Shown here piece by piece: positions 33,159-51,300 of a DNA stretch of 51,630 nt. The number at the start of each line of letters is the position of its first letter. Within the stretch, counting starts at the first letter, position 1. Under the pieces are notes generated by a model. The model saw nothing but the letters and a program-made list of their open reading frames with translations. It made no database searches and was not told the DNA's origin. Origin of the DNA: Pseudomonadota bacterium. GTDB taxonomy: Bacteria > Desulfobacterota > Desulfobulbia > Desulfobulbales > Desulfocapsaceae. The stretch covers positions 1-51,630 of the forward strand of contig JAHJNL010000065.1 in NCBI GenBank assembly GCA_018820855.1. Reading direction: 5' to 3'. The translations under genes were made by a program, and so were the position numbers.

Positions 33159-33836
33159 TCAGTTGCTTGTCTGTATTCGTTCTCTGAGTTGCATCCGTTG
33201 TTCCTGGAGACAGTTGGAGATAATGGAATCTCTGTGTTTGGAAGAGACATGGTCAAAGTGAAAAGCGACCTGGTAATGACCTCGGCGTAACCGTTTTGAT
33301 CTGATAACGTGTGCTGCACATTCTATGGTGGTCTTAGTGTGTTTCAGAGTGATTTCAATTTGGATTCGATGGTTGCTTTTCGGTTGATCAGGAAGGATGG
33401 CGAGAACTCCACTTCCGGATAAATCGAGAGTCTCACCCTTAAGCATCCAGTAATGACTCCGATCTTCTGCAGGGCCTGGTTCGTAAGTTAATTTAATAGG
33501 CATCCTGGTGTCGACTCGGAAGTATTCTCTTAAACTGGATGGATCGACAGATTTTTTGGCAATAAGCTCAAGGGTGCGATCCCCATTAATATGTAAAATT
33601 TTTGCCGTGATGGTAAGTGATACATTTTCTCCTTTAATGGAGATGGGACAGTGTCGACTTATGTCAATGTTAGAAGGAAGGTGTTTGGGAGGAAAGACCA
33701 GAAAAAAATTAGGGGCAAGTGATTCTTTGTAAATGCATTTTAACCGAATTGTTTGGCCTTCTGTGGTTGAAATGTCAATTTCAGCACTAGCACTGTCGAT
33801 TATTTTTTTTACGATATCTGTGATTGAGGAATCCAC
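33159..33836 (-). CDS. PilZ domain protein with YcgR-like N terminus
   Basis: The 225-residue protein has an N-terminal beta-rich half like the YcgR/PilZN domain (GQTIRLKCIYKESLAPNFFLVF) and a C-terminal PilZ domain. R-x3-R is REYFR (about residue 119) and D-x-S-x-x-G is LDLSGSG. YcgR-type proteins slow the flagellar motor when c-di-GMP is high. It is a tandem paralogue of the next upstream gene (33893-34582), sharing the same architecture and motif spacing. Both lie immediately beside fliC on the opposite strand. Confidence 0.85.
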   Translation of the reverse strand: MDSSITDIVKKIIDSASAEIDISTTEGQTIRLKCIYKESLAPNFFLVFPPKHLPSNIDISRHCPISIKGENVSLTITAKILHINGDRTLELIAKKSVDPSSLREYFRVDTRMPIKLTYEPGPAEDRSHYWMLKGETLDLSGSGVLAILPDQPKSNHRIQIEITLKHTKTTIECAAHVIRSKRLRRGHYQVAFHFDHVSSKHRDSIISNCLQEQRMQLRERIQTSN

Positions 33837-33892: not shown

Positions 33893-34582
33893 TCAGGAAC
33901 CTTTGACTTGGACCTTTAGTCGTAAGAGGCGCCTTTGAGACATCAGGCAACAACCTATGATTTTATCACGATCTTCATCTTCAATATGATCAAAATGGTA
34001 GGCGGCATCCCAGAGGTTATCTGTGAGTTGAGAAATGCGTACCGGTGAAGCAAGGGTAGGGACAACGGTCATTTCAACTGTTGGTAACGCCAGTTCCAGC
34101 CTAACCTGAGTTCTGGCTGGAGGAGCTGTTGTAAAACTTGCCCGTAGGCCACTGCCGCTGAGGTCAACCGTTGTTCCCATGATTTTCCAAGTGTCCTCAG
34201 GAATTCCAAATCCTTCAGGAATAAGAGATTTGATGACAATTGGGACGGTGCAGTCCACTCGAAAATACTCACGCATCTGTTCATGGCTGATGGTTTTCAG
34301 GGGAACCATGTCCAGCGTCTGGTCATTGACAACCTGGATAATTTTGCCTTCCAGAGATACACTTTTACCACCGAGATCCAGGTTGATGAGACAGGAGGTG
34401 TCCAGGTCAATCTTGTTTACAGGAAGGGCTCCGGGGTTGAATAAAAGATTGAAGTGAGTAGTCTGTGTTTTTTTTAGTACACACTGAATAAGTAGTCTTT
34501 CATCCGCACCAAGGACAGGTAAAAAAAGACGGACAGGTTTGTCGTCTGAAATTTGTGAAAAGAAGTTATTTAAGTCTATCAC
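33893..34582 (-). CDS. PilZ domain protein, paralogue of the adjacent one
   Basis: The 229-residue product has the same two-domain layout: an N-terminal YcgR-like barrel (VRLFLPVLGADERLLIQCVL) and a PilZ domain with REYFR near residue 119 and VDLSGSG. Both c-di-GMP motifs are intact. The N-terminal halves of the two paralogues differ more than the PilZ halves, so they may bind different partners. It is the first gene of the minus-strand flagellar/PilZ group and diverges from fliC. Confidence 0.85.
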   Translation of the reverse strand: MIDLNNFFSQISDDKPVRLFLPVLGADERLLIQCVLKKTQTTHFNLLFNPGALPVNKIDLDTSCLINLDLGGKSVSLEGKIIQVVNDQTLDMVPLKTISHEQMREYFRVDCTVPIVIKSLIPEGFGIPEDTWKIMGTTVDLSGSGLRASFTTAPPARTQVRLELALPTVEMTVVPTLASPVRISQLTDNLWDAAYHFDHIEDEDRDKIIGCCLMSQRRLLRLKVQVKGS

Positions 34583-35024: not shown

Positions 35025-35069
35025 GGGCAAGGACGCCCAATCTATCAACTTCATGGAGGATAAACCATG
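35025..35069 (+). promoter_or_regulatory. CsrA-type hairpins in the flagellin leader
   Basis: Two small stem-loops display GGA in their loops. The first is GGGC-AAGGAC-GCCC (35025-35038). The second is CATGG-AGGATAAA-CCATG (35052-35069) and contains both the ribosome site and the ATG of fliC. CsrA dimers favour paired GGA loops like these, with one overlapping the Shine-Dalgarno, as known for flagellin of Bacillus subtilis. No csrA or fliW is in the window. Confidence 0.45.
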
Positions 35070-36218
35070 GCATTAACAATTAACACAAACGTCGCATCCC
35101 TCAACGCCCAACGTAATCTGGGTACCTCTCAAAGTAACCTCAACAAATCAATGCAGCGCCTTTCTTCAGGTCTGCGTATTAACAGCGCTAAAGACGACGC
35201 TGCCGGTCTTGCAATTTCCGATCGTATGACCTCGCAGATTCGTGGTTTGAATCAAGCGTCACGAAATGCCAACGATGGTATTTCTCTTGCGCAAACTGCT
35301 GAAGGTGCCCTGCAGGAAAGTACCAACATTCTGCAGCGTATTCGTGAGCTGGCTGTTCAGTCTGCGAATGATACCAACAGTGCCAGTGATCGTTCTTCCC
35401 TGAATGATGAGGTCTCTCAGCTGGTGAATGAGCTGGATCGTATTTCTGAAACCACAAGTTTCAATGGAAAGAAGCTTCTTGATGGTACCATGGACAATGC
35501 AACCTTCCAGGTGGGTGCAAATGCCGGATCAAATCAGACCATCTCTTTTGCAATTGAAAGTGCACGTTCTGATGATTTAGGTGCTGACAATCTGACAACT
35601 GTAGCTGCCCAGGCTGCAGTATTCTCGGCAGGATCCTTTCAGGCTACTGCTGATACCGCTGGTGCTGATGGTAACAATATTAAAGTAAGAGTGGTGGATG
35701 GTACTGCTAACAGTACTGTGGTAACGGGTAATACTATTACTGCTACCTATCAGTTCACTGCTACGGCTTCCAATGATATGTCTAAAATTGGTGGTTTGAT
35801 TAATGCTGCGAACTCTCTTGTTACTACAAATTTTGCAGCTACCGCAAGTTCGGAAATATCAATTAATCTCACTGGCGGTAACGATGCCGGGCTGGAAGGA
35901 ACCAGGATTATATCAGATATCTCTGTTGCTAATCGTCAGGAAGCAGACATTACCATCGCAAGTATTACTGGTGCACTGGAACAGATTGATACGATTCGTG
36001 GTGGCTTGGGTGCCATGCAGAATCGTTTCGAATCAACCATTGCTAATCTTAACAATGTTGCCGAAAACCTTTCTGCCGCACGTTCCCGGATTCTTGATGC
36101 TGATATCGCTCAGGAAACCTCGAGCATGACCAAGCAGAATATTCTGCAACAGGCCGGTGTTTCTATCCTTGCACAAGCCAACCAGGCTCCGCAGCTGGCT
36201 CTGTCACTGCTCGGTTAA
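35067..36218 (+). CDS. fliC: Flagellin
   Basis: The 383-residue filament protein has the conserved D0/D1 ends: N-terminal [37 protein letters not shown] and [15 protein letters not shown]-terminal [31 protein letters not shown] and [22 protein letters not shown]. The central variable part (about residues 175-290) is short and Thr/Ser/Ala/Asn-rich, giving plentiful sites for O-glycosylation. It lacks cysteine. It is exported by the flagellar type III system and assembled under FliD. A strong ribosome site (GGAGGA) precedes the ATG, and a terminator follows the stop. Confidence 0.97.
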
Positions 36219-36703: not shown

Positions 36704-38326
36704 ATGGCTATCACATTTGGCGGCCTGGCAACAGGCCTGGATACAAATACCATTGTCAGTGAGTTGATGAATCTCGAACGTCGACCACTGAACACCCTTG
36801 AGATAGATAAAGCTTGGTTTGAACGGCGACAGGCAGCATATGGGACATTTGATGGAAAGTTGGAAGGTTTTTTGTCTAATATTAAAAGTCTTGGTTCCAG
36901 TGAAGAATTAAGACAAAAAAACGTTTCAACCTCATCCGACACCTATTTTTCAGTCACCGCGGGTAGTGATGCCCAGGCGGGAAGTAGTTATCAGGTTGAG
37001 GTCGTGTCTCTTGCTCAGGTACAAAAAGATGTCAGCCAAGGATACGCCGATAAGAGTGCTAATAGTTTTGGTACTGGTGAACTCACGTTAAGCGTAGGAG
37101 CAAATACTCCAATCACGATTACTCTTGATGAGACAAACAATTCCCTTGAAGGGATAATGAAAGCTATTAATGACACTGACTCCGGTGTTAATGCCTCAAT
37201 TATCAATGATGGAACCGACAGTCCCTATCGTCTGGTGTTAAGTGGTGAAGATGTTGCCAATACGTTTTCTCTGACTTCGAATTTGCCAACCTATAACGGA
37301 GACATCAGTGCTCAACTGCAGTCTGGTGGTTATGCCGATCAGAATGCAGCAGTTTTTGGTAGTGGAACCATTGATCTTTCAACAGGGGATCAAATCACTC
37401 TTGGTGGGGAAACTAACTCCTTACAGGATATAATGGAGGCCATCAATGGTGAAACAGGTATTACCGGTATAAGCGCTTCTATAGTTGCTGATGGCGATAA
37501 TTTTGTTCTTTCCCTGAGTGATGGGGCAACAATTACCACAACAGATCTGAGTGGAGGCAATTATGATTCTTTGAGTCTGATTGAAACCCAGGGTGCTACA
37601 CAGGCACACATCCGGGTCGATACAATCGATATCTATTCTAACTCAAACACCATAGAAGAAGCGATCCCTGGTTTAAGCCTGGATCTGGTCACTGCTGAAG
37701 AAGGGAAGACTACAAATGTCACAGTCTCGCTGGATGAAGCTGCGATAAGATCACAGATAGAGATGTTTGTTAAGGGTTACAATGACGTAGTCGGTTTTAT
37801 TGATTCGCAATCAACAACAGAAGATTCCAACGGAGGGATTTTAGGCGGGGAGGCTACTATCAACACTGTGAAGAGACGGTTTCAAGGTCTTCTGACAAGC
37901 TTTGTAGATACAAGTGGCAATTTTTCAGCCTTATCTCAGTTAGGACTTAAAACACAAAAAGACGGAACCCTCGAACTTGATGATTTTGCTTTAGCAGATG
38001 CTATTCACAATGATCTGGGGAGTATTGAAAAGTTGCTGGTCGGTGAAGGTGAGACTGAGGGTATTGCCGCTCAATTCCAGAGTTACCTCGAAGGGATAAC
38101 TGATTCCAGAAATGGACTAGAGGCTACTAATAAAAGAAGCACTGAATCGATTGTGGAAAATATTGAGAATCGTATGGAGCAGATAGAATTACGTCTGGTA
38201 AAGAGAGAAGAAACCATGCGCAATAAATTCAATGCGCTGGAACTCTTGATCAGTGGTATGAACTCACAGGGCTCTTTCCTTACACAGCAGATGGATATGC
38301 TTAACAATATGACGTGGAATAAATAA
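36704..38326 (+). CDS. fliD: Flagellar hook-associated protein 2 (filament cap)
   Basis: FliD caps the growing filament and folds incoming flagellin. The 540-residue product has the N-terminal FliD domain (GGLATGLDTNTIVSELMNLE), a repetitive Ser/Thr/Gly-rich centre with two copies of an FGSGTI/FGTGEL-type flagellin hook IN motif (SFGTGELTLSVG near 110 and FGSGTIDLSTGD near 222), and the helical C-terminal domain ending in ITDSRNGLEATNKR and LVKREETMRNKFNALE. Its TAA stop overlaps the ATG of fliS (TAATG). Confidence 0.95.
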   Translation: MAITFGGLATGLDTNTIVSELMNLERRPLNTLEIDKAWFERRQAAYGTFDGKLEGFLSNIKSLGSSEELRQKNVSTSSDTYFSVTAGSDAQAGSSYQVEVVSLAQVQKDVSQGYADKSANSFGTGELTLSVGANTPITITLDETNNSLEGIMKAINDTDSGVNASIINDGTDSPYRLVLSGEDVANTFSLTSNLPTYNGDISAQLQSGGYADQNAAVFGSGTIDLSTGDQITLGGETNSLQDIMEAINGETGITGISASIVADGDNFVLSLSDGATITTTDLSGGNYDSLSLIETQGATQAHIRVDTIDIYSNSNTIEEAIPGLSLDLVTAEEGKTTNVTVSLDEAAIRSQIEMFVKGYNDVVGFIDSQSTTEDSNGGILGGEATINTVKRRFQGLLTSFVDTSGNFSALSQLGLKTQKDGTLELDDFALADAIHNDLGSIEKLLVGEGETEGIAAQFQSYLEGITDSRNGLEATNKRSTESIVENIENRMEQIELRLVKREETMRNKFNALELLISGMNSQGSFLTQQMDMLNNMTWNK

Positions 38327-39256: not shown

Positions 39257-39655
39257 ATGAAAACAATAGATGTCTGGTTCAGCGAGTCCATTGAACAATA
39301 TAACGATTTCACTGTAAAAACCGAGGAACTCAGGGAAAACATTGAGTTGCTTTCAATTGAGAAAATAATGCAACGGTTGGACGCAATTAGAAAATTGCAG
39401 GAAGATATCGCTGAGCGAGACGGAAAGCTTCATGCACTTATGGACTTTACCGGATCAGATGTTCTTGAAAATCCTCTTATAGGAGACTATCAACGTGCCC
39501 TTGATACCGCTATCAGGGAAACCGACAGAGTCTCATCCAAAATGCAGCTTCGCAAGATACTCCTGATGCAGAAGACAAGTAATGTACAGGCTTTTAGAAA
39601 AGACTCATTTGAGTATGTTACCGCAATAAAAAAATATAACAGTTTACTTCAATAA
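39257..39655 (+). CDS. Small coiled-coil protein at the end of the flagellin operon
   Basis: The 132-residue product is helical and charged, with heptad-like stretches (KTEELRENIELLSIEKIMQR, IRKLQEDIAERDGKL, TDRVSSKMQLRKILLM). No known domain is recognised. It is 78 nt after the preceding gene, with GGTGGGG before the ATG, and is the last + strand gene before the convergent sugar operon. A FliT-like filament-cap chaperone is a guess from position and size. Confidence 0.6.
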   Translation: MKTIDVWFSESIEQYNDFTVKTEELRENIELLSIEKIMQRLDAIRKLQEDIAERDGKLHALMDFTGSDVLENPLIGDYQRALDTAIRETDRVSSKMQLRKILLMQKTSNVQAFRKDSFEYVTAIKKYNSLLQ

Positions 39656-39747
39656 AGAATTCAGGTAATTGTCGGTTTTTAAGTAACTGTTCTACATCTC
39701 ATATCTTTTAACATCCTCCCGATTATTCGCATGGAATCCCCAAGTTT

Positions 39748-41733
39748 TTATATCTCCTGAGAAAGAATGCATTTTGTGTTAGTGGGCTGAATCTTCAAGC
39801 AGAATGGAAGTAAGTCTCTGTTGCAGCTTACCGTATCATCGGTTTCACTTATAGAAAAGAAGAGACGAAACAATTTTGTTTCTTTGCAAAACATGTGTTG
39901 TACTAAAGGCATACAGGCACATTCCGCCGGTGCCCAGGAAAACCGGAGTCCGTTATGACCTGTTTGTATTGTTATTTCACCATTGGTTGAGCCAAAACCG
40001 CCGTTAGAGGAAACGAGCGTTGACGCCACGGAAGAATGGTCGAAATCCCGATCCAGTAAAAAATGTTCCTGGACAGGGCCGCCGTTGGCTGTGATTATTT
40101 CAACAGTGTCGGCAAAATTCTCTGGCAAAAAAGTCATTATACCAGTTCTGATTGAGCTGATATGTTTCTGTATTTTTGCATCAAAATTATAGGAGATAGA
40201 GATACACTCAGAATCACGCTCAACGTTTATTGTTTTGAATAATACGCCGAGTTTGGTCTGTATTTCGCTGCTGATCTCAAGTCCTGTTTTTGTCCACTGA
40301 AAATTTGGTATAACAGGTTCCAGGTCTGTTGTGCGAGTATGTTCAGTAGGAAGTTCGGCCACTAGATTACCACTGTAAAAATCTGCGCCTAAGGCAATGG
40401 ATTTATAATAACCATGAGGCAGGCTACCAACTAATGCTTTATAAGCATGACTTTTAAAGGCCAGCGATTTTATGGCCAAGCCCCTGCGCATATTCAACAC
40501 TAAATCAATCTGAGCGCTCTTTACAGACAAATAAATATTGTCGCTTTCCCTGTTGATTTCAAATCCGTCCTGCTCAACCATAGTAATGTTATTGCTGCCA
40601 GTTGGCTCAGATGTTGCCAGGTTCAGCTCGTGTAAAAAATCGTTAAGTTTTTTACACATAGTGTCCCAACGCTTTTTCTCGATATGTGTGCGGAAATCAC
40701 TTGCCCAAAACTCACAAAGCTTCTTCCAGTGATCTTCATTGATAGTTGCAGCTTGAGACAGCTGTTTTGCAATGCGGTGACACATTGTGTTCAACCACAA
40801 ATCATTTTTGCCGGTTATCGCCCAACGGGCAATGTTGTATTTTGCCTGCTTTTTAACGGGAATCGGATGAGACGCAGATGTCAGTCGTGATACTTTGCGG
40901 TCAATAGATTGGTTATTGATTCTGAGTGCCTGAGTCGGTGAAATCCATTCTATTGCAGTTTCTTCGGTAACTGAGGATAAGAGATCATGTAAACGATTCC
41001 ATTCCCCCTCGCTATGTATTGAGCGTTCCTGGCTGAAGCGGCCGGGGCGATAGTCGAAAATTTCAGCATCATTACAATAGATAGGTAGAAGTGTTTCACC
41101 ATCTTCTATACGTTTCTTCAAGTATTGTAAGTAGTCTGCTTTAGCGATGTCGCCGTGAGCATAATGCTGGATCTTCTGGAAGAGAATTGAATCTGCCCAT
41201 AATACAGGTAAAACAGTATCAGTTGCCCCTTGAGCGTGAGTCGGAACAGCAGACATTGGCGTACCATCCAAATCCAGTGCCAAGCGTACATTGTCTCGAT
41301 CCATGATAAAACCCTGGTATGCAAAATCAGCATAGAGTTCAACCAGACTGTTGGAGTAGGCCATTTCGTTCACCAATACAATATCCGGTCGACCACCAAG
41401 AATACGCACGTATTCTTTTAACCCAAGTCGCTGGTTCCAGATATTTACCTCGTAGGGAACAAGCGGAGCAATAATCTGGCTGTACCCGCTGCCAATGAGT
41501 TCACATTGTTTGGTTTTTAATAATTCTTTAAATTGTTTTATCCAGGCCGGATCAATTTGTTCAATCTGTTTCAGCGTCCACCCGGTAAGCTCAACACCTA
41601 CCGGGATTGCAGTGTCTTCGATAAATCGAAGTAAGGAGTGGTAACAGATTCTGATGACATCCGGCCGATCCTCAGCAGCAATAGAAGAGAAGGCGAGATT
41701 AAGATGGAAAATCAAATAACCTTTTGGACGCAT
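39748..41733 (-). CDS. GH57-like glycoside hydrolase domain protein
   Basis: The 661-residue protein begins YLIFHLNLAFSSI and continues with VGVELTGWTLKQIEQIDP, IGSGYSQIIAPLVP, and VLVNEMAYSNSLVELYADFAYQGFI, the pattern of the GH57/38 (beta/alpha)7-barrel catalytic domain. The glutamate in VNEMAYS sits where GH57 nucleophiles lie, and CNDAEIFDYRPGRF could hold the second carboxylate. A central helical part and a beta-rich C-terminal half (residues 400-650) follow. No signal peptide, so it works inside the cell, perhaps as a transglycosylase, epimerase or trimming enzyme on a nucleotide- or lipid-linked sugar. It is the last gene of the six-gene operon; its ATG directly follows the upstream stop (TGAATG). 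Confidence 0.72.
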   Translation of the reverse strand: MRPKGYLIFHLNLAFSSIAAEDRPDVIRICYHSLLRFIEDTAIPVGVELTGWTLKQIEQIDPAWIKQFKELLKTKQCELIGSGYSQIIAPLVPYEVNIWNQRLGLKEYVRILGGRPDIVLVNEMAYSNSLVELYADFAYQGFIMDRDNVRLALDLDGTPMSAVPTHAQGATDTVLPVLWADSILFQKIQHYAHGDIAKADYLQYLKKRIEDGETLLPIYCNDAEIFDYRPGRFSQERSIHSEGEWNRLHDLLSSVTEETAIEWISPTQALRINNQSIDRKVSRLTSASHPIPVKKQAKYNIARWAITGKNDLWLNTMCHRIAKQLSQAATINEDHWKKLCEFWASDFRTHIEKKRWDTMCKKLNDFLHELNLATSEPTGSNNITMVEQDGFEINRESDNIYLSVKSAQIDLVLNMRRGLAIKSLAFKSHAYKALVGSLPHGYYKSIALGADFYSGNLVAELPTEHTRTTDLEPVIPNFQWTKTGLEISSEIQTKLGVLFKTINVERDSECISISYNFDAKIQKHISSIRTGIMTFLPENFADTVEIITANGGPVQEHFLLDRDFDHSSVASTLVSSNGGFGSTNGEITIQTGHNGLRFSWAPAECACMPLVQHMFCKETKLFRLFFSISETDDTVSCNRDLLPFCLKIQPTNTKCILSQEI

Positions 41734-42732
41734 TCAAACACCTGCAAGTGAACAAACAAGTTTTGCGAGCTTTTGGGCTCCATTTGTCGATAATTTTTCC
41801 AAGGCCCTTTGTGAGTATGCTGTTGCCAGATCTGTATCAGTCATCAGTTCAATGAGCCCTTGTACGGCCGAATCAGGATCATGGCAGACGACAGCAACCC
41901 GCTCTTCTTTCAAGGCCTCAAGTTCGGGCTGATCTTTGGCCCCATACGGTGAGAAAACAACTGCTGGTATACCGTACTGCAAGACTTCAAAGAATGAGAC
42001 GCCAAAAACCGTCAGTACATAGTTGCTTTGAACGATGAGCTCGTCTAGTTGTGGCGGGGCATCATGGATATGCCAGAGTAAACGCTGGTTGTCCGGGACG
42101 ATTGGCGGAACTGCATAAGGTCCGCGAACCCAGTGTATTTCAGACTCAGGCGTCAACAACATGTCAAGCTGTTGCGGGAGAGTATTTCCCAGGTGAGTGA
42201 CATCAGCACCGCCTGTCAGAACCAAAATACGTGGACCGGATTTCCATGGCCGGCCTGGCAGACGTTTTTGAATCAAAAAGCTGTCCCAGCCGTATTTTAA
42301 TTTATTGGTGCAGGATGGTATTTTGCTCGAATCAAAATTAAAGGACGGTACCCAGACAAAATCAAGGAATTGGCAGTAGTTGACCAAGGAATCGACTCCC
42401 ACCGAACGAATCTTACGTGATTGCAGCCAGGCAAAGAGTTCTTCCAGGGCAGGGGAGAGAAGCTTCGAGTAAAGATCAAAGACCACCACACGGGGGAGTC
42501 TTGCTGTTACTGCAATTTTAACGGACTGTTCCAATTCGTCTGCAGGTGAGTGGCATGAAAAACTGAAGGAGGATAACTCATCATTTTTGATGGCATCACC
42601 GATAATGAGAAATTCCGGATGGACAGTGCCGGTTTTCCTGATTGCCTGAGCCAAGGCAAGCAATCTCGCCAAATGACCAAGTCCCATGGTACTGGATGCG
42701 TGGCAAACCAGCAAAACACGTGGTATTGTCAT
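41734..42732 (-). CDS. PseG/SpsG-like nucleotide-sugar hydrolase or glycosyltransferase
   Basis: The 332-residue protein has a GT-B/MurG-like fold resembling PseG and SpsG. Features are the N-terminal GLGHLARLLALAQAIRK glycine-histidine loop, a central LVLTGGADVTHLGNTLPQQL, and a C-terminal donor region VLTVFGVSFFEVLQYGIPAVVFS. PseG removes UDP from the 2,4-diacetamido hexose before the NeuB-type condensation, and it normally lies beside the synthase, as here. It could instead be a transferase using the finished sugar. It lacks the acetyltransferase domain of some fused PseG forms. 13 nt separate it from the NeuB-like gene. Confidence 0.75.
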   Translation of the reverse strand: MTIPRVLLVCHASSTMGLGHLARLLALAQAIRKTGTVHPEFLIIGDAIKNDELSSFSFSCHSPADELEQSVKIAVTARLPRVVVFDLYSKLLSPALEELFAWLQSRKIRSVGVDSLVNYCQFLDFVWVPSFNFDSSKIPSCTNKLKYGWDSFLIQKRLPGRPWKSGPRILVLTGGADVTHLGNTLPQQLDMLLTPESEIHWVRGPYAVPPIVPDNQRLLWHIHDAPPQLDELIVQSNYVLTVFGVSFFEVLQYGIPAVVFSPYGAKDQPELEALKEERVAVVCHDPDSAVQGLIELMTDTDLATAYSQRALEKLSTNGAQKLAKLVCSLAGV

Positions 42733-42745
42733 AACATTTGCTAGA

Positions 42746-43600
42746 TCAGGGGTTGAAGGTTGAACGAATAGATTTTAGCGGACGCAATCCATCTTCAGGA
42801 TCGGCACGCCACATACGATCCGGTATCTCAGACAGGACGGGTTCCTTTTCACCATTTCCGTCTGCGGCCAAGCCATGCTGTACTTGTTTAATGACTTCAC
42901 CTATCTGTTGCGGCAGCCAGCAGTGTCCGGCGTTAAATTCTTCACCTTTTCCGTCCAGGTCAAGATGGAACTCTATTGTCTCGGCATGCCAGCGATGGAT
43001 GGCACGATGAATGACACCAGGGTCGATGGTATGGTCGGACCAGCCGATATTGCAGCCAGTAGCCTGGCGTAATGTTTCGATGGCTGACAAATTCGCTTCG
43101 TTATAAGGTGTCGGGTAGGCAGAGGTGCAATGGAGCAGTGTAGGCTCGTTACAGCCGTTTTGTTTCAGGATACCCACAGCATGAAGAATTTCAGCGAGAT
43201 TTGCCATACCTGTTGAAAGGACTACAGGTTTGTGGGTCTGGGCACATGATGCCAATAACTCATCCCAAAGCAGCTCATAGGAAGCAATCTTGTAAAAATC
43301 GACATAAGGCTCCAGTTCTTTGACTGCCTCCAAATAAAACGGTGTGCAACTGAACTGGATATTTTTTTCTCGGCAACGATCTGCCAGGATAGGCAAAAAC
43401 TGTAAAGGAAGTTCCCAGTTTTTACGAGCTCTATGCTTTTTTGATTTCTTTAATATTTCAGGGGAAAAAAGTCGGTCAATTTTAAAAAGTTGGAATTTCA
43501 CAGAATCACAGCCAATTGCCGCAGCAGTATCAACGAATTCTAACGATCTGGCGATATCTTTGCCATGATTGCTGGAGACTTCAGCGATAAAAAAAGCCAT
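42746..43600 (-). CDS. NeuB-like nonulosonate synthase lacking the SAF domain
   Basis: The 284-residue TIM-barrel protein belongs to the N-acetylneuraminate/legionaminate/pseudaminate synthase family, which condenses phosphoenolpyruvate with an amino-hexose. Motifs seen are FIAEVSSNHGKD, VKFQLFK, FSCTPFYLEAV, YKIASYELLWDEL, VVLSTGMANLAEI, LLHCTSAYPTPY and WSDHTIDPG. In canonical enzymes the barrel ends in a region with EKHFTLDR and is followed by a C-terminal SAF (antifreeze-like) lid. Here the segment reads ETIEFHLDLDGKGEEFNAGH and the protein stops about 45 residues later, so the lid is absent. The start is ATG 43600, one base after the ATP-grasp stop; a TTG at 43609 is also open. Confidence 0.85.
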   Translation of the reverse strand: MAFFIAEVSSNHGKDIARSLEFVDTAAAIGCDSVKFQLFKIDRLFSPEILKKSKKHRARKNWELPLQFLPILADRCREKNIQFSCTPFYLEAVKELEPYVDFYKIASYELLWDELLASCAQTHKPVVLSTGMANLAEILHAVGILKQNGCNEPTLLHCTSAYPTPYNEANLSAIETLRQATGCNIGWSDHTIDPGVIHRAIHRWHAETIEFHLDLDGKGEEFNAGHCWLPQQIGEVIKQVQHGLAADGNGEKEPVLSEIPDRMWRADPEDGLRPLKSIRSTFNP

Positions 43601-43601
43601 C

Positions 43602-44822
43602 TTATTCAATCTCTACATGCAAACATGCAATTGCTTCTTCTACACGCGCTATCGCCTCTTCACGATCTGCACCCTGTACAAGAACGTAGCCAAAACGGTC
43701 AGGATGCATATGGATGATTGGCTGCATCTCACCGGGCTTGCGAAAAAAACCATACTGCAACAGCCCTGGGACGACTTTGAGAATTTCCTCACCGCTGATG
43801 GCCTTGATTCTGCCCGATTCAGGAAACCAGTATCGTATCGCTGTTGAACAATCCCATTTGGGAATCAGGTCTTCAGGGTAAACCTTCTCTCCCAGTGCAT
43901 ATGAAATGACAGCATCTACCAGGCTTACTCCTGTGGCAGCAGGAATCTCATGGGATGCAAACCAACCACCGGAAAGTCGTGCAGCCAGTTCAATGATGAG
44001 GGGATTACCTGCTGAATCGATAACCAGATCGCCTTTTACAATTCCATCTGTTATTCCCATGGAACGAGCACCACGCAGGATAAGATCATCAATGGCCATA
44101 CGTTGCTGATCGCTTAACTGTGCAGGAATGGTCCCACCATCTTCGATGATATAAGGCTTGAATTCATCGAGCCTGGAATAATTACGTTCGGCGATAGCCG
44201 GGGTATAGCAGACATCACCCAGAATAAAACTTTCAGTGGAAAGCTGAATGCCAGGGATGAATTTTTCAAGGATAAGTCTACCGGAATCTCCCCATCTTTT
44301 GGACTCTTCAAAAGCCCAATGAAGATCGATTTTATCATCAAGCAGCAAGACACCTCTGGCCCCGCGACCATCTACTGGTTTTAAAACATAGGTTTCCTGA
44401 TCCCGGTTATTCGTCAAGTCCTTTAGTTGTACAATGTTTTCAACGGGAGAAAACCAGGGGCATGGCACATCATTCTTCTGGAATTGCTGCTTCATCAGTA
44501 ACTTGTCAGAGGCACATTTGGCAGCCTCAAGACTGATCGAATGCAGACCAAGTTTTTTTGAGGTCAATGCAACTGTGTAGGGAACGTCATTGGCAATGGT
44601 CATAACCCCATCAACCTGGTGGCTCTTGTTAAACTGCACTGCACTTTCTGCGGTAGCTTCAGCATCCCTGGTGGATACTATCAACACATGGTCAGCTAAA
44701 GCCAAGGCAGGGGCATCTTTCTTTACATCTGTGCCAACGATGATCAATCCACGTTTTTTTGCCGCTTCGTAGGCTGGTATCTGCTCCACACCACCCCCGA
44801 TTATCATAAGTGTCTTAGCCAA
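43602..44822 (-). CDS. ATP-grasp carboxylate ligase
   Basis: The roughly 406-residue protein is an ATP-grasp enzyme resembling carbamoyl-phosphate synthase large chain and PurK-like ligases. It has an N-terminal Rossmann-like pre-ATP domain (TLMIIGGGVEQIPAYEAAKKRG), ATP-binding YVLKPVDGRGARGVLLL, the grasp LILEKFIPGIQLSTE, and Mg-binding LIIELAARLSGGWFASHEIP. Such enzymes join a carboxylate to an amine or thiol through acyl phosphate, so it may amidate or peptidylate an acid. The start is uncertain: TTG 44822 (GGGGGA upstream), ATG 44840, or ATG 44807; all overlap or abut the SDR stop. Substrate unknown. Confidence 0.83.
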   Translation of the reverse strand: MAKTLMIIGGGVEQIPAYEAAKKRGLIIVGTDVKKDAPALALADHVLIVSTRDAEATAESAVQFNKSHQVDGVMTIANDVPYTVALTSKKLGLHSISLEAAKCASDKLLMKQQFQKNDVPCPWFSPVENIVQLKDLTNNRDQETYVLKPVDGRGARGVLLLDDKIDLHWAFEESKRWGDSGRLILEKFIPGIQLSTESFILGDVCYTPAIAERNYSRLDEFKPYIIEDGGTIPAQLSDQQRMAIDDLILRGARSMGITDGIVKGDLVIDSAGNPLIIELAARLSGGWFASHEIPAATGVSLVDAVISYALGEKVYPEDLIPKWDCSTAIRYWFPESGRIKAISGEEILKVVPGLLQYGFFRKPGEMQPIIHMHPDRFGYVLVQGADREEAIARVEEAIACLHVEIE

Positions 44823-45549
44823 GGAGATAAGTCCCCCCATTTACATTGATTGTTTGTCCGCTGATATAAGATGATTGTTCGGAACAGAGATAGACAACGG
44901 TTGACGCGACTTCCTCAGGGGTGCCTAACCGACCCACTGGAATATCTTTTGTGATTTCATTGGATTTTTTTTCATTGAGTTCAACCGCAATCATGTCGGT
45001 TTGGATGAGTCCGGGAGCGACACAGTTACAACAAATACCGTTTCCTGAATAGATTTTTGCAAGAGATTTGGTGAAATTAATAAGACCTGCTTTTGCCGCA
45101 GCATAGTGGACCTGATAGAGCCCCCCCCATTGCCCTCCAATCGATGAAATATTGACTATTCGACCAAAACTCCTGTCAACCATTCCAGGAATAACTCGTC
45201 TGGCGCAGCGTACAGCCCCCAGGAGGTTCACAGATAACATATGTTCCCATTCGGAATCACTGATCTCGAGAAACGGCTTTACTTGTGAAATCCCTGCGTT
45301 ATTCACCAGTGTGTCAATTGGACCGAGCTGGCTTTCAATCGCATGAATAGCTGTATCGACGGACTGTAAAGATGAAACATCTATTTGAATCGGAATTCCC
45401 GTATGGTGTTCTGTGATTATTTCACAGGCAAGTTCTTCGTTGGTCTTATATCCAACGGCTACGCGATAACCGCTTTTCATCAAGGCCGTGGCCACAGCAC
45501 GACCGATACCCCGGCTGGCACCTGTTACTAATGCGACTCGATCACTCAT
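44815..45549 (-). CDS. Short-chain dehydrogenase/reductase
   Basis: The 244-residue SDR is FabG-like. It has the NAD(P) motif TGASRGIGRAVA, NNAGISQ, catalytic Ser in NISSIGGQ, Tyr-x3-Lys in VHYAAAKAG, and the C-terminal SGQTINVNGG. It probably reduces or oxidises a keto/hydroxy sugar or a product of the adjacent TPP enzyme. Its ATG overlaps the TPP gene stop by 4 nt (ATGA), and its own stop lies inside the ATP-grasp start, so the three are co-translated. No fatty-acid genes are nearby, so a fatty-acid role is unlikely. Confidence 0.88.
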   Translation of the reverse strand: MSDRVALVTGASRGIGRAVATALMKSGYRVAVGYKTNEELACEIITEHHTGIPIQIDVSSLQSVDTAIHAIESQLGPIDTLVNNAGISQVKPFLEISDSEWEHMLSVNLLGAVRCARRVIPGMVDRSFGRIVNISSIGGQWGGLYQVHYAAAKAGLINFTKSLAKIYSGNGICCNCVAPGLIQTDMIAVELNEKKSNEITKDIPVGRLGTPEEVASTVVYLCSEQSSYISGQTINVNGGTYLLG

Positions 45550-47267
45550 GCCTCACGTCCCATCCACATTTCCCCCATGTGCTGTCCGGCAAGCAATAAG
45601 GGGGTGACATCTGCTGCCGGGTCAATGGCGACATCAAGTAATACAGGGCCAGGTTGTTCCCAAAACCAGGTGAGTTTTTCCTCCATATCTTCGGCGTGCT
45701 GCAAGTGATCTGAAGCGATACCGAAACCATGTGCAATTGCCTTAAAATCCGGTGATTGAAAATCTCCGGTAATGGGATCATCTCCCCATGTTATGAGCTG
45801 AAATTGTGAGACAAGCCCCAGGCGGCTGTTATTGAGGACCAGGATTTTCACATTGAGCTGACGTTCCTGGAGAGAGGCAAGTTCCTGAATATTCATCAGC
45901 AGGGAACCATCTCCTACGACACACAAGATGGACCTCTCCGGATAAGCCATGGCTGCACCAATGGCTGAAGGCAAATCATATCCCATGGTACCATGTCCGC
46001 CGGAAGTGAGGTGTAAATGTGTGTCCGGTTTAAAGGGAAGATGACGTGCAGCCCAGTGCTGATGACAACCGACACCGGTGACAACAATTGTTTCCTGATC
46101 ATTCATCAGTCTTGCCAGGTTATTCAAGATTTGGCGAGGCTGGAGAAGAGCAGAACCTTTAAGTGGAATGTCCTCAAGCTGCTGTGACTTGATGTCCAGC
46201 ATTTTCTCCTGCCAGTTTTTGTCGGATTCTGTCTCTTTGACACCAATTGTATCAATGAAAGCATCACAAAAATCGACGAGATTTGTCTCCATTTTCCATG
46301 TTACATCCACTCTCCCTTCCTGGAGTTCATTAGCATCAATGTCTATCCATGCGACAGTGCCATTGGGGACAAATTGATCTACGACCGTACCGGTTTGTCT
46401 GACATCAAGACGTGAGCCCAATACGAGCAGAAAGTCACATTCAAAAACGGCACGATTAGCCACCAGATGACCAGTATGGCCAATGTATCCTAAATAGCGT
46501 TGATCCGTGCTGTCGAAGCTGCCGACCCCAAGGAAGTTCGTAACCACCAGAGCATCTAACCTGGAAGCAATTTCGGTATACTTCTCATATGCGCGTGCAG
46601 TCAATGCCCCATGTCCCAATAACAACAGCGGCCGGCGTGAGTTAACAGCTGCTTGGCTGATCTCCTTGAGCATTGTCATATCAGGCTGTGAACGTAGCAA
46701 CTCGGTCTTGTCAGTTGAGGAAATAGGTGATACCTCTGGTTCATCTATTGCTTCTCTTTGAATATCCATTGGAAAATCAATAACACATGGACCCTTTCTG
46801 CCAGTAGCAGCAATGCGAAAGGCATCTGGCAGTTCTCGATATACATCTTCTGCAGAAAGCAAACATACTGAATGTTTACTGATAGGCTCTGTTATCGCAA
46901 CAGTCGGGGTTTCCTGAAACCCCCTTTGTCTGATACTTTTACGAATTGTCAGATCCCCGGTCCCTATCTGACCTGTGATCAAAACCAGCGGAGTAGAATC
47001 GTAATATGCATCGGCTAAAGGCGTTATTGCATTGGTAGCACCTGGCCCAGATGTTACCATGACCACCTGGACACGACCGGTTAACCTTGCGTAAGCGAGA
47101 GCTGCGTACCCGGCTCCTTGTTCTGATTTGAAACATTCAACTGCTATTTTAGCTTTGAGACAGGCATTTATTAATGGGATAATGGTGCCGCCAGGATAGA
47201 CAAACACTTTTTGTACACCATGAAAAACGAGAACGCCGGCAACCCAGTCTGATATATTCTGTTTCAT
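45546..47267 (-). CDS. Acetolactate synthase-like TPP-dependent enzyme
   Basis: The 573-residue protein has the three-domain acetolactate synthase/benzoylformate decarboxylase fold. Seen are the catalytic Glu region FKSEQGAGYAALAYARLTGR, VTSGPGATNAITPLADAY, the central VLVLGSRLDVRQTG-like nucleotide domain (LLVLGSRLDVRQTG), and the TPP-Mg motif VVGDGSLLMN ... LNNSRLGL. No ilvN regulatory subunit or ilvC follows, and it heads a sugar operon, so it is probably not true IlvB. It may carboligate or decarboxylate a keto acid linked to sugar synthesis. The ATG at 47267 has CAGGTG upstream; a GTG at 47273 is open too. Confidence 0.85.
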   Translation of the reverse strand: MKQNISDWVAGVLVFHGVQKVFVYPGGTIIPLINACLKAKIAVECFKSEQGAGYAALAYARLTGRVQVVMVTSGPGATNAITPLADAYYDSTPLVLITGQIGTGDLTIRKSIRQRGFQETPTVAITEPISKHSVCLLSAEDVYRELPDAFRIAATGRKGPCVIDFPMDIQREAIDEPEVSPISSTDKTELLRSQPDMTMLKEISQAAVNSRRPLLLLGHGALTARAYEKYTEIASRLDALVVTNFLGVGSFDSTDQRYLGYIGHTGHLVANRAVFECDFLLVLGSRLDVRQTGTVVDQFVPNGTVAWIDIDANELQEGRVDVTWKMETNLVDFCDAFIDTIGVKETESDKNWQEKMLDIKSQQLEDIPLKGSALLQPRQILNNLARLMNDQETIVVTGVGCHQHWAARHLPFKPDTHLHLTSGGHGTMGYDLPSAIGAAMAYPERSILCVVGDGSLLMNIQELASLQERQLNVKILVLNNSRLGLVSQFQLITWGDDPITGDFQSPDFKAIAHGFGIASDHLQHAEDMEEKLTWFWEQPGPVLLDVAIDPAADVTPLLLAGQHMGEMWMGREA

Positions 47268-50024: not shown

Positions 50025-50212
50025 TATTACAAAGTTCATGAGAGTATTTTTGTCTGGTGTTATTGTGGGGAACAATTTTCACTTTCACAACTCTATGTTA
50101 CTAAATCGATGTTAGCTTGTAACTTCACTTCATCTGGTAAGGTAATCCCCCCAAAAAATAAAGGTGTTCAAAAGTAGAATTTTCTCATAAAATAACTAAG
50201 AGGAGATTCTCA

Positions 50213-50479
50213 ATGAAAAAATCACGGTATAGCGACAATCAAATATTAAATATACTCAAGCAAGCAGAAGCAGGAACACCTGTTTCCGAGCTTTGTCGGG
50301 AACATGGCATGAGCAGTGCGAGTTTCTATAAATGGTGGGCAAAATATGGTGGCATGGATGCCTCCCTCATGCACCGTCTCAAGGAATTGGAGGCAGAAAA
50401 CAAACGTCTCAAAAAGATGTATGCTGAAGAACGATTAAAGGCAGAAATCATCCAGGAAGCAATGGAAAAAAAGTGGTGA
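50213..50479 (+). CDS. IS3-family transposase OrfA
   Basis: The 88-residue protein has an N-terminal helix-turn-helix (YSDNQILNILKQAEAGTPVS, CREHGMSSASFYKWWAKYGG) and a leucine-zipper-like C terminus (LKELEAENKRLKKMYAEERL) ending EKKW. It binds the element's ends. Near its end the heptamer A-AAA-AAG (50467-50473) sits in the correct phase for a -1 frameshift; the next -1 codon opens the OrfB frame at GTG 50473, so an OrfAB fusion can be made. Confidence 0.9.
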   Translation: MKKSRYSDNQILNILKQAEAGTPVSELCREHGMSSASFYKWWAKYGGMDASLMHRLKELEAENKRLKKMYAEERLKAEIIQEAMEKKW

Positions 50480-51300
50480 AGCCATCTCAGCGTCGTGAGA
50501 TGGCAAAGCAAACGGTAGAGAGTAAGGGGGTACCGATTCGGCATGTCTGTAACGCTTTTGCGATCAGTGAAACCTGTTATCGTTATCAGCCAAAGTTGTC
50601 CGAAGAAAACACGAAAATAGCAGAATGGCTGATCAGATTGACGCACAATCAGCGTAACTGAGGATTCGGCCTGTGCTTTTTATCTCTGCGCAATGTCAAC
50701 GGTTTCGAATGGAACCACAAGAGAGTGTATCGCATCTATCGTGAGCTTGAGCTAACTCTTCGTATCAAGCCCAAGAAGCGCTTGGTAAGAGAAAAACCTG
50801 AGCCACTTGCGCAACCTGCGGCAATCAACCAGAGCTGGTCCATGGATTTCATGCATGACCAACTCTCTGATGGCCGTAGTTTTCGAACTTTCAATGTTAT
50901 TGATGACTTCAATCGTGAGGGACTGTGTATCGAAGTTGATTTTTCTTTACCCTCAGAACGAGTAATTCGAGCACTGAATCAGGTTATAGAGTGGCGAGGT
51001 AAGCCCAAAGCCATTCGTTGCGATAACGGACCAGAATACATCAGTGCCAAGATCATTAACTGGGCTGAGGATCACAAAATCCACCTGAACCATATACAAC
51101 CAGGTAAGCCACAACAAAATGCCTATGTTGAGCGATATAATCGCACAGTCCGTTATGAATGGCTGGCTCAATATCTATTTAAATCTATAGAAGAGGTGCA
51201 GGAATACGCTACTCGTTGGCTCTGGATGTATAATAACGAACGCCCCAATATGGCACTAGGTGGGATAACTCCAAAACAGAAACTAAAAATGGCCGCATGA
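50473..51300 (+). pseudogene. IS3-family transposase OrfB with an in-frame nonsense codon
   Basis: Both parts of OrfB lie in one frame, split only by TGA at 50659-50661. Relatives have Trp there (context RN-W-GFGLCFL), so TGG changed to TGA. All DDE marks are intact: [15 protein letters not shown] and [13 protein letters not shown]. With the early stop, OrfAB should be non-functional unless suppressed. The rest of the sequence is not degraded, so the mutation looks recent, or it may be a sequencing error. Confidence 0.85.

Follow-up and report, generated by a model that had tools for sequence, protein, structure and literature searches.

What does a six-gene operon that lies tail-to-tail with the flagellin genes fliC-flaG-fliD-fliS contribute to the flagellum? 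The operon is on contig JAHJNL010000065.1 of a Desulfocapsaceae genome (GCA_018820855.1, here G000; 4.82 Mb in 106 contigs), and the window analysed is this one whole contig of 51,630 bases. The six genes were outlined in the original prediction, and the analysis confirmed them, in order of transcription, as follows.

45546..47267, minus strand: acetolactate-synthase-like thiamine diphosphate (TPP) enzyme (SfmB-type), first operon gene; Pfam TPP_enzyme N, M and C domains
44815..45549, minus strand: short-chain dehydrogenase/reductase (SDR), ketoreductase (SfmC-type); adh_short_C2, 210 bits
43602..44840, minus strand: ATP-grasp amide ligase with an L-amino-acid-ligase C-terminal domain (SfmE-type); LAL_C2 and ATP-grasp_3
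42746..43609, minus strand: short NeuB of 287 aa, presumed nonulosonate synthase (SfmA-type); PF03102, 201 bits
41734..42732, minus strand: candidate PseG-like UDP-sugar hydrolase; TIGR03590, 38 bits (cut-off 154)
39748..41733, minus strand: GH57-family protein; catalytic residues conserved

We conclude that the operon likely belongs to a Sfm-type flagellin nonulosonate pathway. It is probably the variable half of such a pathway, where a polyhydroxy-acyl chain would be placed on the amine that PseH usually acetylates.

The dehydratase, aminotransferase and CMP-transferase that had been thought missing were found on another contig of the same genome, C49, as PseB (525 bits, cut-off 408), PseC (580, cut-off 424) and PseF (317, cut-off 206). 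The acetyltransferase, PseH, is indeed without a counterpart (best match 29.4 bits, cut-off 93.1). C49 begins with a methyltransferase, PseF, PseC, PseB and a Maf-type protein (Maf_flag10_N and MptE-like domains; the genome's one MptE-like/Maf match), followed by fliW, flgL, flgK and more flagellar genes, whose names were read from sequence. The predicted nonulosonate (pseudaminic-type) pathway serving the flagellum is supported. Compared with the PseB-C-H-G-I-F pathway of Campylobacter and Helicobacter, PseB, PseC and PseF reach equivalog scores and PseG-like, NeuB-family and Maf-type proteins are present, but PseH is absent, the PseG-like and NeuB proteins score far below the PseG and PseI cut-offs, and the TPP, SDR, ATP-grasp and GH57 genes are extra.

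The window contig and C49 likely adjoin in this genome, because both halves are on one 85,139-base contig in a Desulfocapsa metagenome-assembled genome. Its ATP-grasp protein is 86% identical, and the same six-gene operon beside fliS-fliD-fliC (L037) lies about 16 kb from a methyltransferase-PseF-PseC-PseB-Maf block (L126). Similarity of the window to L037 ends at about position 50031, before an IS3-type transposase. This element is therefore the probable cause of the break in the assembly beside the PseB-PseC-PseF-Maf block. In the relative, the stretch that separates the two halves (L126:7819-12448) has genes that read, by sequence, like CDP-3,6-dideoxyhexose synthesis (cytidylyltransferase, dehydratases, epimerase).

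The Sfm system itself is known from Shewanella oneidensis MR-1 (PMC3765264). There, sfmABCDE (SO_3261-SO_3265) encodes a NeuB, a TPP enzyme, an SDR, an S-adenosylmethionine methyltransferase and an ATP-grasp protein of 290, 581, 255, 395 and 412 aa, respectively, and was shown experimentally to be required for full flagellin modification. All five families are encoded in our genome at similar lengths (287, 573, 244, 408 and 412 aa), four of them in the window and the methyltransferase on C49. The likeness, judged by family and length, covers the NeuB of about 290 aa, the acetolactate-synthase-type TPP enzyme, the SDR, the methyltransferase and the 412-aa ATP-grasp protein. Both genomes also encode PseB and PseC homologues elsewhere and no clear PseH. 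MR-1 has Maf nearby and is described as lacking clear orthologues of PseH, PseG, PseI and PseF (PMC3765264), whereas PseF is present here and the window operon adds the PseG-like and GH57 genes. The systems differ in gene order as well: our five families do not share one operon, the methyltransferase lying beside PseF on C49 and, in the Desulfocapsa relative, about 16 kb from the TPP gene. In one locus of a gammaproteobacterium (L077), each of the five Sfm families is matched, along with PseG, GH57, Maf and fliC.

The glycan of S. oneidensis flagellin consists of a 274-Da nonulosonate and an outer unit of 236, 250 or 264 Da. The description gives the inner residue as C11H18N2O6, with one N-acetyl group, a basic nitrogen and nuclear magnetic resonance signals like those of pseudaminic acid H-3/H-4, and the outer unit as nitrogen-free C9H16O7 with 0-2 methyl groups (PMC3765264). 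By formula arithmetic, C9H16O7 corresponds to a saturated C9 acid residue carrying six hydroxyls; it also fits the sum of a C7 3-deoxy-2-keto acid, an acetaldehyde unit and 2H, less water, which speaks of compatibility only.

In the pathway we propose, PseB and PseC, assigned firmly by family, would produce UDP-4-amino-4,6-dideoxy-AltNAc, the 4-amine of which, later N7 of the nonulosonic acid, would stay unacetylated because PseH is absent. The TPP enzyme would add a two-carbon unit from pyruvate onto an acid-bearing acceptor, the SDR would reduce the resulting ketone, and the C49 methyltransferase may O-methylate the product to give a polyhydroxy acid. The ATP-grasp ligase would then activate this acid and form an amide with the free amine, a step to which we give slightly better than even chances. 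The PseG-like protein would remove UDP and the short NeuB would condense the sugar with phosphoenolpyruvate (PEP), each being the genome's sole match of its kind. PseF would convert the product into a CMP-sugar, and Maf, judging by its family, would transfer it to Ser or Thr of flagellin. The original prediction had offered an acyl or an amino-acid extension: the former, involving the TPP enzyme and an acid-amine ligase, is probable, and the latter is disfavoured because the outer unit in S. oneidensis is nitrogen-free.

The three enzymes proposed to build and attach the acyl chain were examined individually. Against TIGR00118 the operon TPP enzyme scores 458 bits (cut-off 538), whereas two other synthases of the genome reach 835 and 678 bits and are flanked by open reading frames that read like ACT-type small subunits. 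Next to the operon gene are the SDR gene and, upstream, a 100-aa open reading frame without a Pfam match. A housekeeping role as biosynthetic acetolactate synthase was therefore rejected, given the score below cut-off, the lack of a small-subunit gene nearby and the two above-cut-off synthases elsewhere. Glu51, Arg288 and Phe491 are identical in 24/24 cluster paralogues; the two other synthases of the genome have Trp or Gln at the Phe491 position, and the constancy of Phe in the clusters suggests an acceptor other than 2-ketobutyrate. We propose that the operon enzyme forms a C-C bond on a keto or hydroxy acid. The SDR has the Tyr149 and Lys153 found in all 63 aligned homologues, and the presumed catalytic Ser position, which may be misplaced, is Ser in just 20 of the 63. 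The ATP-grasp protein combines the LAL_C2 domain and ATP-grasp core of the L-amino acid ligase family; its best solved relatives are 4dim and the L-amino acid ligase 3vot, and Lys154, Asp271, Glu284 and Arg288 are invariant across 11 sequences. We propose, from sequence, that it would join a hydroxy acid to the sugar amine.

To see how far the module extends, we searched 395 genomes of the phylum (E<=1e-50 for the ATP-grasp protein, E<=1e-40 for GH57), with p-values that treat genomes as independent though they are related by kinship. The ATP-grasp protein occurs in 14 of them but, at this threshold, neither in the congener included in the sample (G339) nor in two members of the family (G357, G376). 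The GH57 protein occurs in 19, including 13 of the 14 ATP-grasp carriers (p=5e-19). Six GH57 carriers lack a close ATP-grasp protein; five of them have a distant one (27-30% identity) within one gene of GH57, and the sixth (L137) is on a 4-kb contig, too short to show it. Flagellin was found in 19/19 GH57 carriers versus 197/376 other genomes (p=7e-6) and in 13/14 ATP-grasp carriers (p=0.002); the exception, G133, is on a 13.8-kb contig where neither GH57 nor a carboligase was matched.

A wider scan took a single genome per species from 84,980 species and yielded 241 relatives. The 80 best loci, MR-1 not among them, were used; 46 of these are well flanked, with at least 5 kb on both sides. Co-occurrence of the families, proposed as a check in the original prediction, was counted in the well-flanked loci, where 43 have a keto-compound-forming enzyme, 39 an SDR and 41 GH57. 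PseG-like proteins occur in 35, NeuB in 28 and methyltransferase-type matches, to a loose reference, in 32. A flagellar gene or Maf lies within 10 kb in 24/46, and 44/46 have some flagellar or nonulosonate gene. Flagellin was found in 34 of the 40 carrier genomes searched, which represent 40 of the 80 loci.

The gene for the keto-compound-forming enzyme occupies a slot that can be filled in several ways. Of the 46 loci, 17 have only an acetolactate-synthase-like enzyme and another 17 only a split transketolase, seven have a transaldolase/FSA-type enzyme and two a transketolase with a DXS-type enzyme, and three have none that we found; the acetolactate-synthase-like enzyme and the split transketolase never occur together (p=5e-6). 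In L136 (9188-9979) and L138 (9185-9955), the carboligase is replaced by an isomerase of the KduI/IolB type (216 and 225 bits), encoded between GH57 and the distant ATP-grasp gene. The reductase varies too: among the seven loci without SDR, five (L084, L087, L097, L098, L099) have a zinc alcohol dehydrogenase instead and two (L092, L104) have neither. We infer that what the slot enzymes share is a product with a ketone beside hydroxyls, reducible by SDR or dehydrogenase.

To follow the slot along the ATP-grasp tree (88 proteins, for 75 of which the closest slot gene within 6 kb gave the label), we counted the minimum number of switches, which was 20 in the careful tree and 18 in the quick one, against 24-36 in 200 shuffles. 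The slot also differs between near relatives (L074 versus L075 and L079; L041 versus L091). It partly follows kinship and has been exchanged many times. What is new here is that SDR, ATP-grasp and GH57 form a core in many phyla around an exchangeable keto-compound-forming gene. We tentatively suggest, at somewhat below even chances, that this core is a transferable N-acylation cassette of flagellated bacteria in many phyla, that swapping the slot enzyme varies the polyhydroxy-acyl chain placed on one and the same sialic-acid-like flagellin sugar and lets surface chemistry evolve through cassette exchange, and that GH57 has a new, non-starch role. Six loci (L084, L087, L098, L099, L136, L138) have different-looking nonulosonate genes, with NeuB matches only 31-40% identical; L136 and L138 also have neighbours that resemble, by their sequence, a GSA-type aminotransferase and a Gfo/Idh oxidoreductase. 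The cassette may therefore have several sugars as its targets.

In 2013 the sfm cluster was known from one further species, S. baltica OS155 (PMC3765264), and the outer unit was unsolved; the gene map puts a related core in many phyla. We found no description of the wider module in the excerpted texts of PMC3765264, PMC3958885 and PMC11339370. The map names the step most likely replaced, PseH, and lets the slot enzyme predict the outer unit's chemistry, so that the mass class of the glycopeptide is expected to change with that enzyme. Kurniyati and colleagues reportedly described in 2017 a 450.2-Da glycan on Treponema denticola FlaB, a mono-acetyl pseudaminic-type acid bearing N7-(2-methoxy-4,5,6-trihydroxyhexanoyl). 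By formula arithmetic, this reported glycan has the same 274-Da core as that of S. oneidensis, with an O-methylated polyhydroxy acyl group on N7; the chain is C6 there and C9 in S. oneidensis. Minus its methyl group the acyl is C6H10O5, the acid of which fits malate semialdehyde plus glycolaldehyde plus 2H, as a transketolase and a reductase would give, as a compatibility only; it also fits a reduced 2-keto-3-deoxyhexonate made without any TPP enzyme.

The other three operon proteins have distinct features. The short NeuB reaches 162 bits against the PseI equivalog (cut-off 340); 30 of 38 cluster relatives are 280-305 aa long, whereas solved NeuB/PseI chains are mostly about 350 aa, with one of 290. 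The PseG-like protein has a GT-B/MurG fold, and His20 of its GLGH motif is found in 42 of 43 homologues; C. jejuni PseG is not among the 50 structural matches listed for its model. The GH57 protein shows the GH57 fold with catalytic Glu and Asp, and no NCBIfam name was obtained for it. It is probably an active glycosidase or transglycosidase on a pathway intermediate. With conserved catalytic residues and as a near-constant partner, it is the core member that our pathway leaves without an explanation.

Several observations weigh against the proposed pathway, among them the mutants of S. oneidensis. Deletion of sfmA-D gives cells that are non-motile on soft agar, though swimming cells with a flagellum still occur in the sfmC mutant, and all four mutants have flagellins that migrate like the unmodified protein, at about 28 instead of 34 kDa (PMC3765264). 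The mutant of the ATP-grasp gene, sfmE, is milder: filaments and swimming are kept and the flagellins are shifted slightly less (PMC3765264). If sfmB, sfmC and the methyltransferase only fed the ligase, one would expect their mutants to be like sfmE, which in mass they are not; only the sfmC mutant, besides sfmE, keeps visible flagella (PMC3765264). The sfmE phenotype itself fits a flagellin that retains the 274-Da core. Either the acid and the ligase act in another order, or a substitute ligase partly stands in, or the group that the ATP-grasp protein adds is a different one. PseG and GH57 are moreover missing from the published sfm operon (PMC3765264). The absence of PseH is weak evidence because PseH is rare in the phylum, with a score above the cut-off in just 3/390 sampled genomes. 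Lastly, six of the 40 carriers have no flagellin match: two Chlorobiaceae (L045, L091), two Acidobacteria (L055, L060), one member of the Acidimicrobiia (L061) and a thaumarchaeote (L108). The module is therefore mostly, not only, flagellar. Maf was found in four of five flagellin-less carrier genomes searched and not in the Chlorobiaceae genome of L045. Five of these loci (L045, L091, L055, L060, L061) have NeuB, PseG-like and GH57 modules, with PseB/PseC also near in L045, L060 and L091; these five modules probably decorate another surface structure.

One pair of genomes from a single genus illustrates the module in place of PseH. Upstream of fliC, G325 has Maf-PseB-PseC-PseF-PseG-PseI (366 aa) with PseH (117 bits), and nothing in the 29 kb read matches ATP-grasp or GH57. 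G343 carries fliC-GH57-ATP-grasp-SDR-transketolase-methyltransferase-PseG-like together with a NeuB of 286 aa; no PseH-like match was found in the 17.6 kb read, and six other genomes, not this one, gave a PseH match. With the G325 PseH as query, the window and the loci L006 and L024-L116, all with short flanks, gave one weak match (25%, 3e-5), in L036, which is itself without the module, and eight further loci with short flanks gave none.

Other readings of the operon were weighed against the same data. A role of the module in decorating a surface polysaccharide, with no more than incidental proximity to flagellin genes, would suit the six carrier genomes without flagellin and the CDP-dideoxyhexose-like genes, named from sequence, between the two halves in the Desulfocapsa relative; it is unlikely in view of the Maf or flagellar genes within 10 kb in 24/46 loci, flagellin in all 19 GH57 carriers, the altered flagellin mass of sfm mutants and the Maf-type protein next to PseB-PseC-PseF here. 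The TPP enzyme and SDR could also make a branched-chain nucleotide sugar of the yersiniose type, attached by a separate glycosyltransferase, with the ATP-grasp protein acting elsewhere, and acetolactate-synthase-like TPP enzymes are used in branched-sugar pathways. However, the operon has no clear separate glycosyltransferase, the PseG-like protein having a MurG-like fold but a PseG-type His, and in other loci transketolase, transaldolase, DXS or KduI/IolB replaces the TPP enzyme near ATP-grasp, which makes this reading very improbable.

Two alternatives change the role of single enzymes. The short NeuB might condense PEP with a small aldose into a 3-deoxy-2-keto acid, the acyl precursor, which the TPP enzyme, SDR and ATP-grasp protein would extend, reduce and attach. 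NeuB directly follows the ATP-grasp gene in 16/80 loci (GH57 in 35/80), and the C7-based sum for C9H16O7 agrees with such a precursor, but with one NeuB-family match in the genome no enzyme would be left to make the nonulosonic acid for PseF and Maf, and we doubt this scheme strongly. The ATP-grasp protein might instead attach an amino acid or peptide, as its C-terminal domain and close solved relative, both of L-amino-acid ligases, would allow, the TPP enzyme and SDR then forming a separate branch. Amino-acid-extended nonulosonates exist on flagellins, as in the Leg5GluNMe7Ac (N-methylglutamyl legionaminic acid) of C. botulinum, which resembles our proposal in its acyl extension but is not tied to a TPP-SDR-ATP-grasp-GH57 module in the excerpts of its description (PMC5207245). 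The nitrogen-free outer unit of the S. oneidensis glycan and the keto-compound-forming enzyme near ATP-grasp in 43/46 loci render an amino acid quite unlikely here. A polyhydroxy-acyl chain on the free amine is the reading that we prefer.

The remaining features of the window are the flagellin group, the presumed target of the sugar, and the genes beyond the operon's first gene.

35067..36218, plus strand: flagellin fliC, presumed sugar acceptor; Flagellin_N, 174 bits, and Flagellin_C, 91 bits
36287..36658, plus strand: flaG-like gene; NF005834, 41 bits, below the cut-off of 107
36704..38326, plus strand: fliD; FliD_C, 158 bits
38326..38751, plus strand: fliS; FliS, 138 bits
48219..50024, plus strand: B12-binding radical SAM protein, divergent from the operon; Radical_SAM and B12-binding domains
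50213-51300, plus strand: IS3-type transposase pair (HTH_Tnp_1, rve), near the contig's right end

At 39600-39800, where the two gene groups converge, a terminator-like site was looked for and not found. A flagellar sigma-28 (FliA-type) promoter upstream of the operon was rejected, as the best candidate has 9/12 matches and 177 of 200 base-shuffled sequences did equally well or better. The B12-binding radical SAM gene is kept beside the operon in L037 (86%) and is a possible member of the system; radical SAM genes also lie between ATP-grasp and GH57 in L084, L085, L087, L098 and L099. Upstream of fliC, two similar-looking proteins are encoded on the minus strand (33159-33836 and 33893-34582), the first with a PilZ domain (52 bits).

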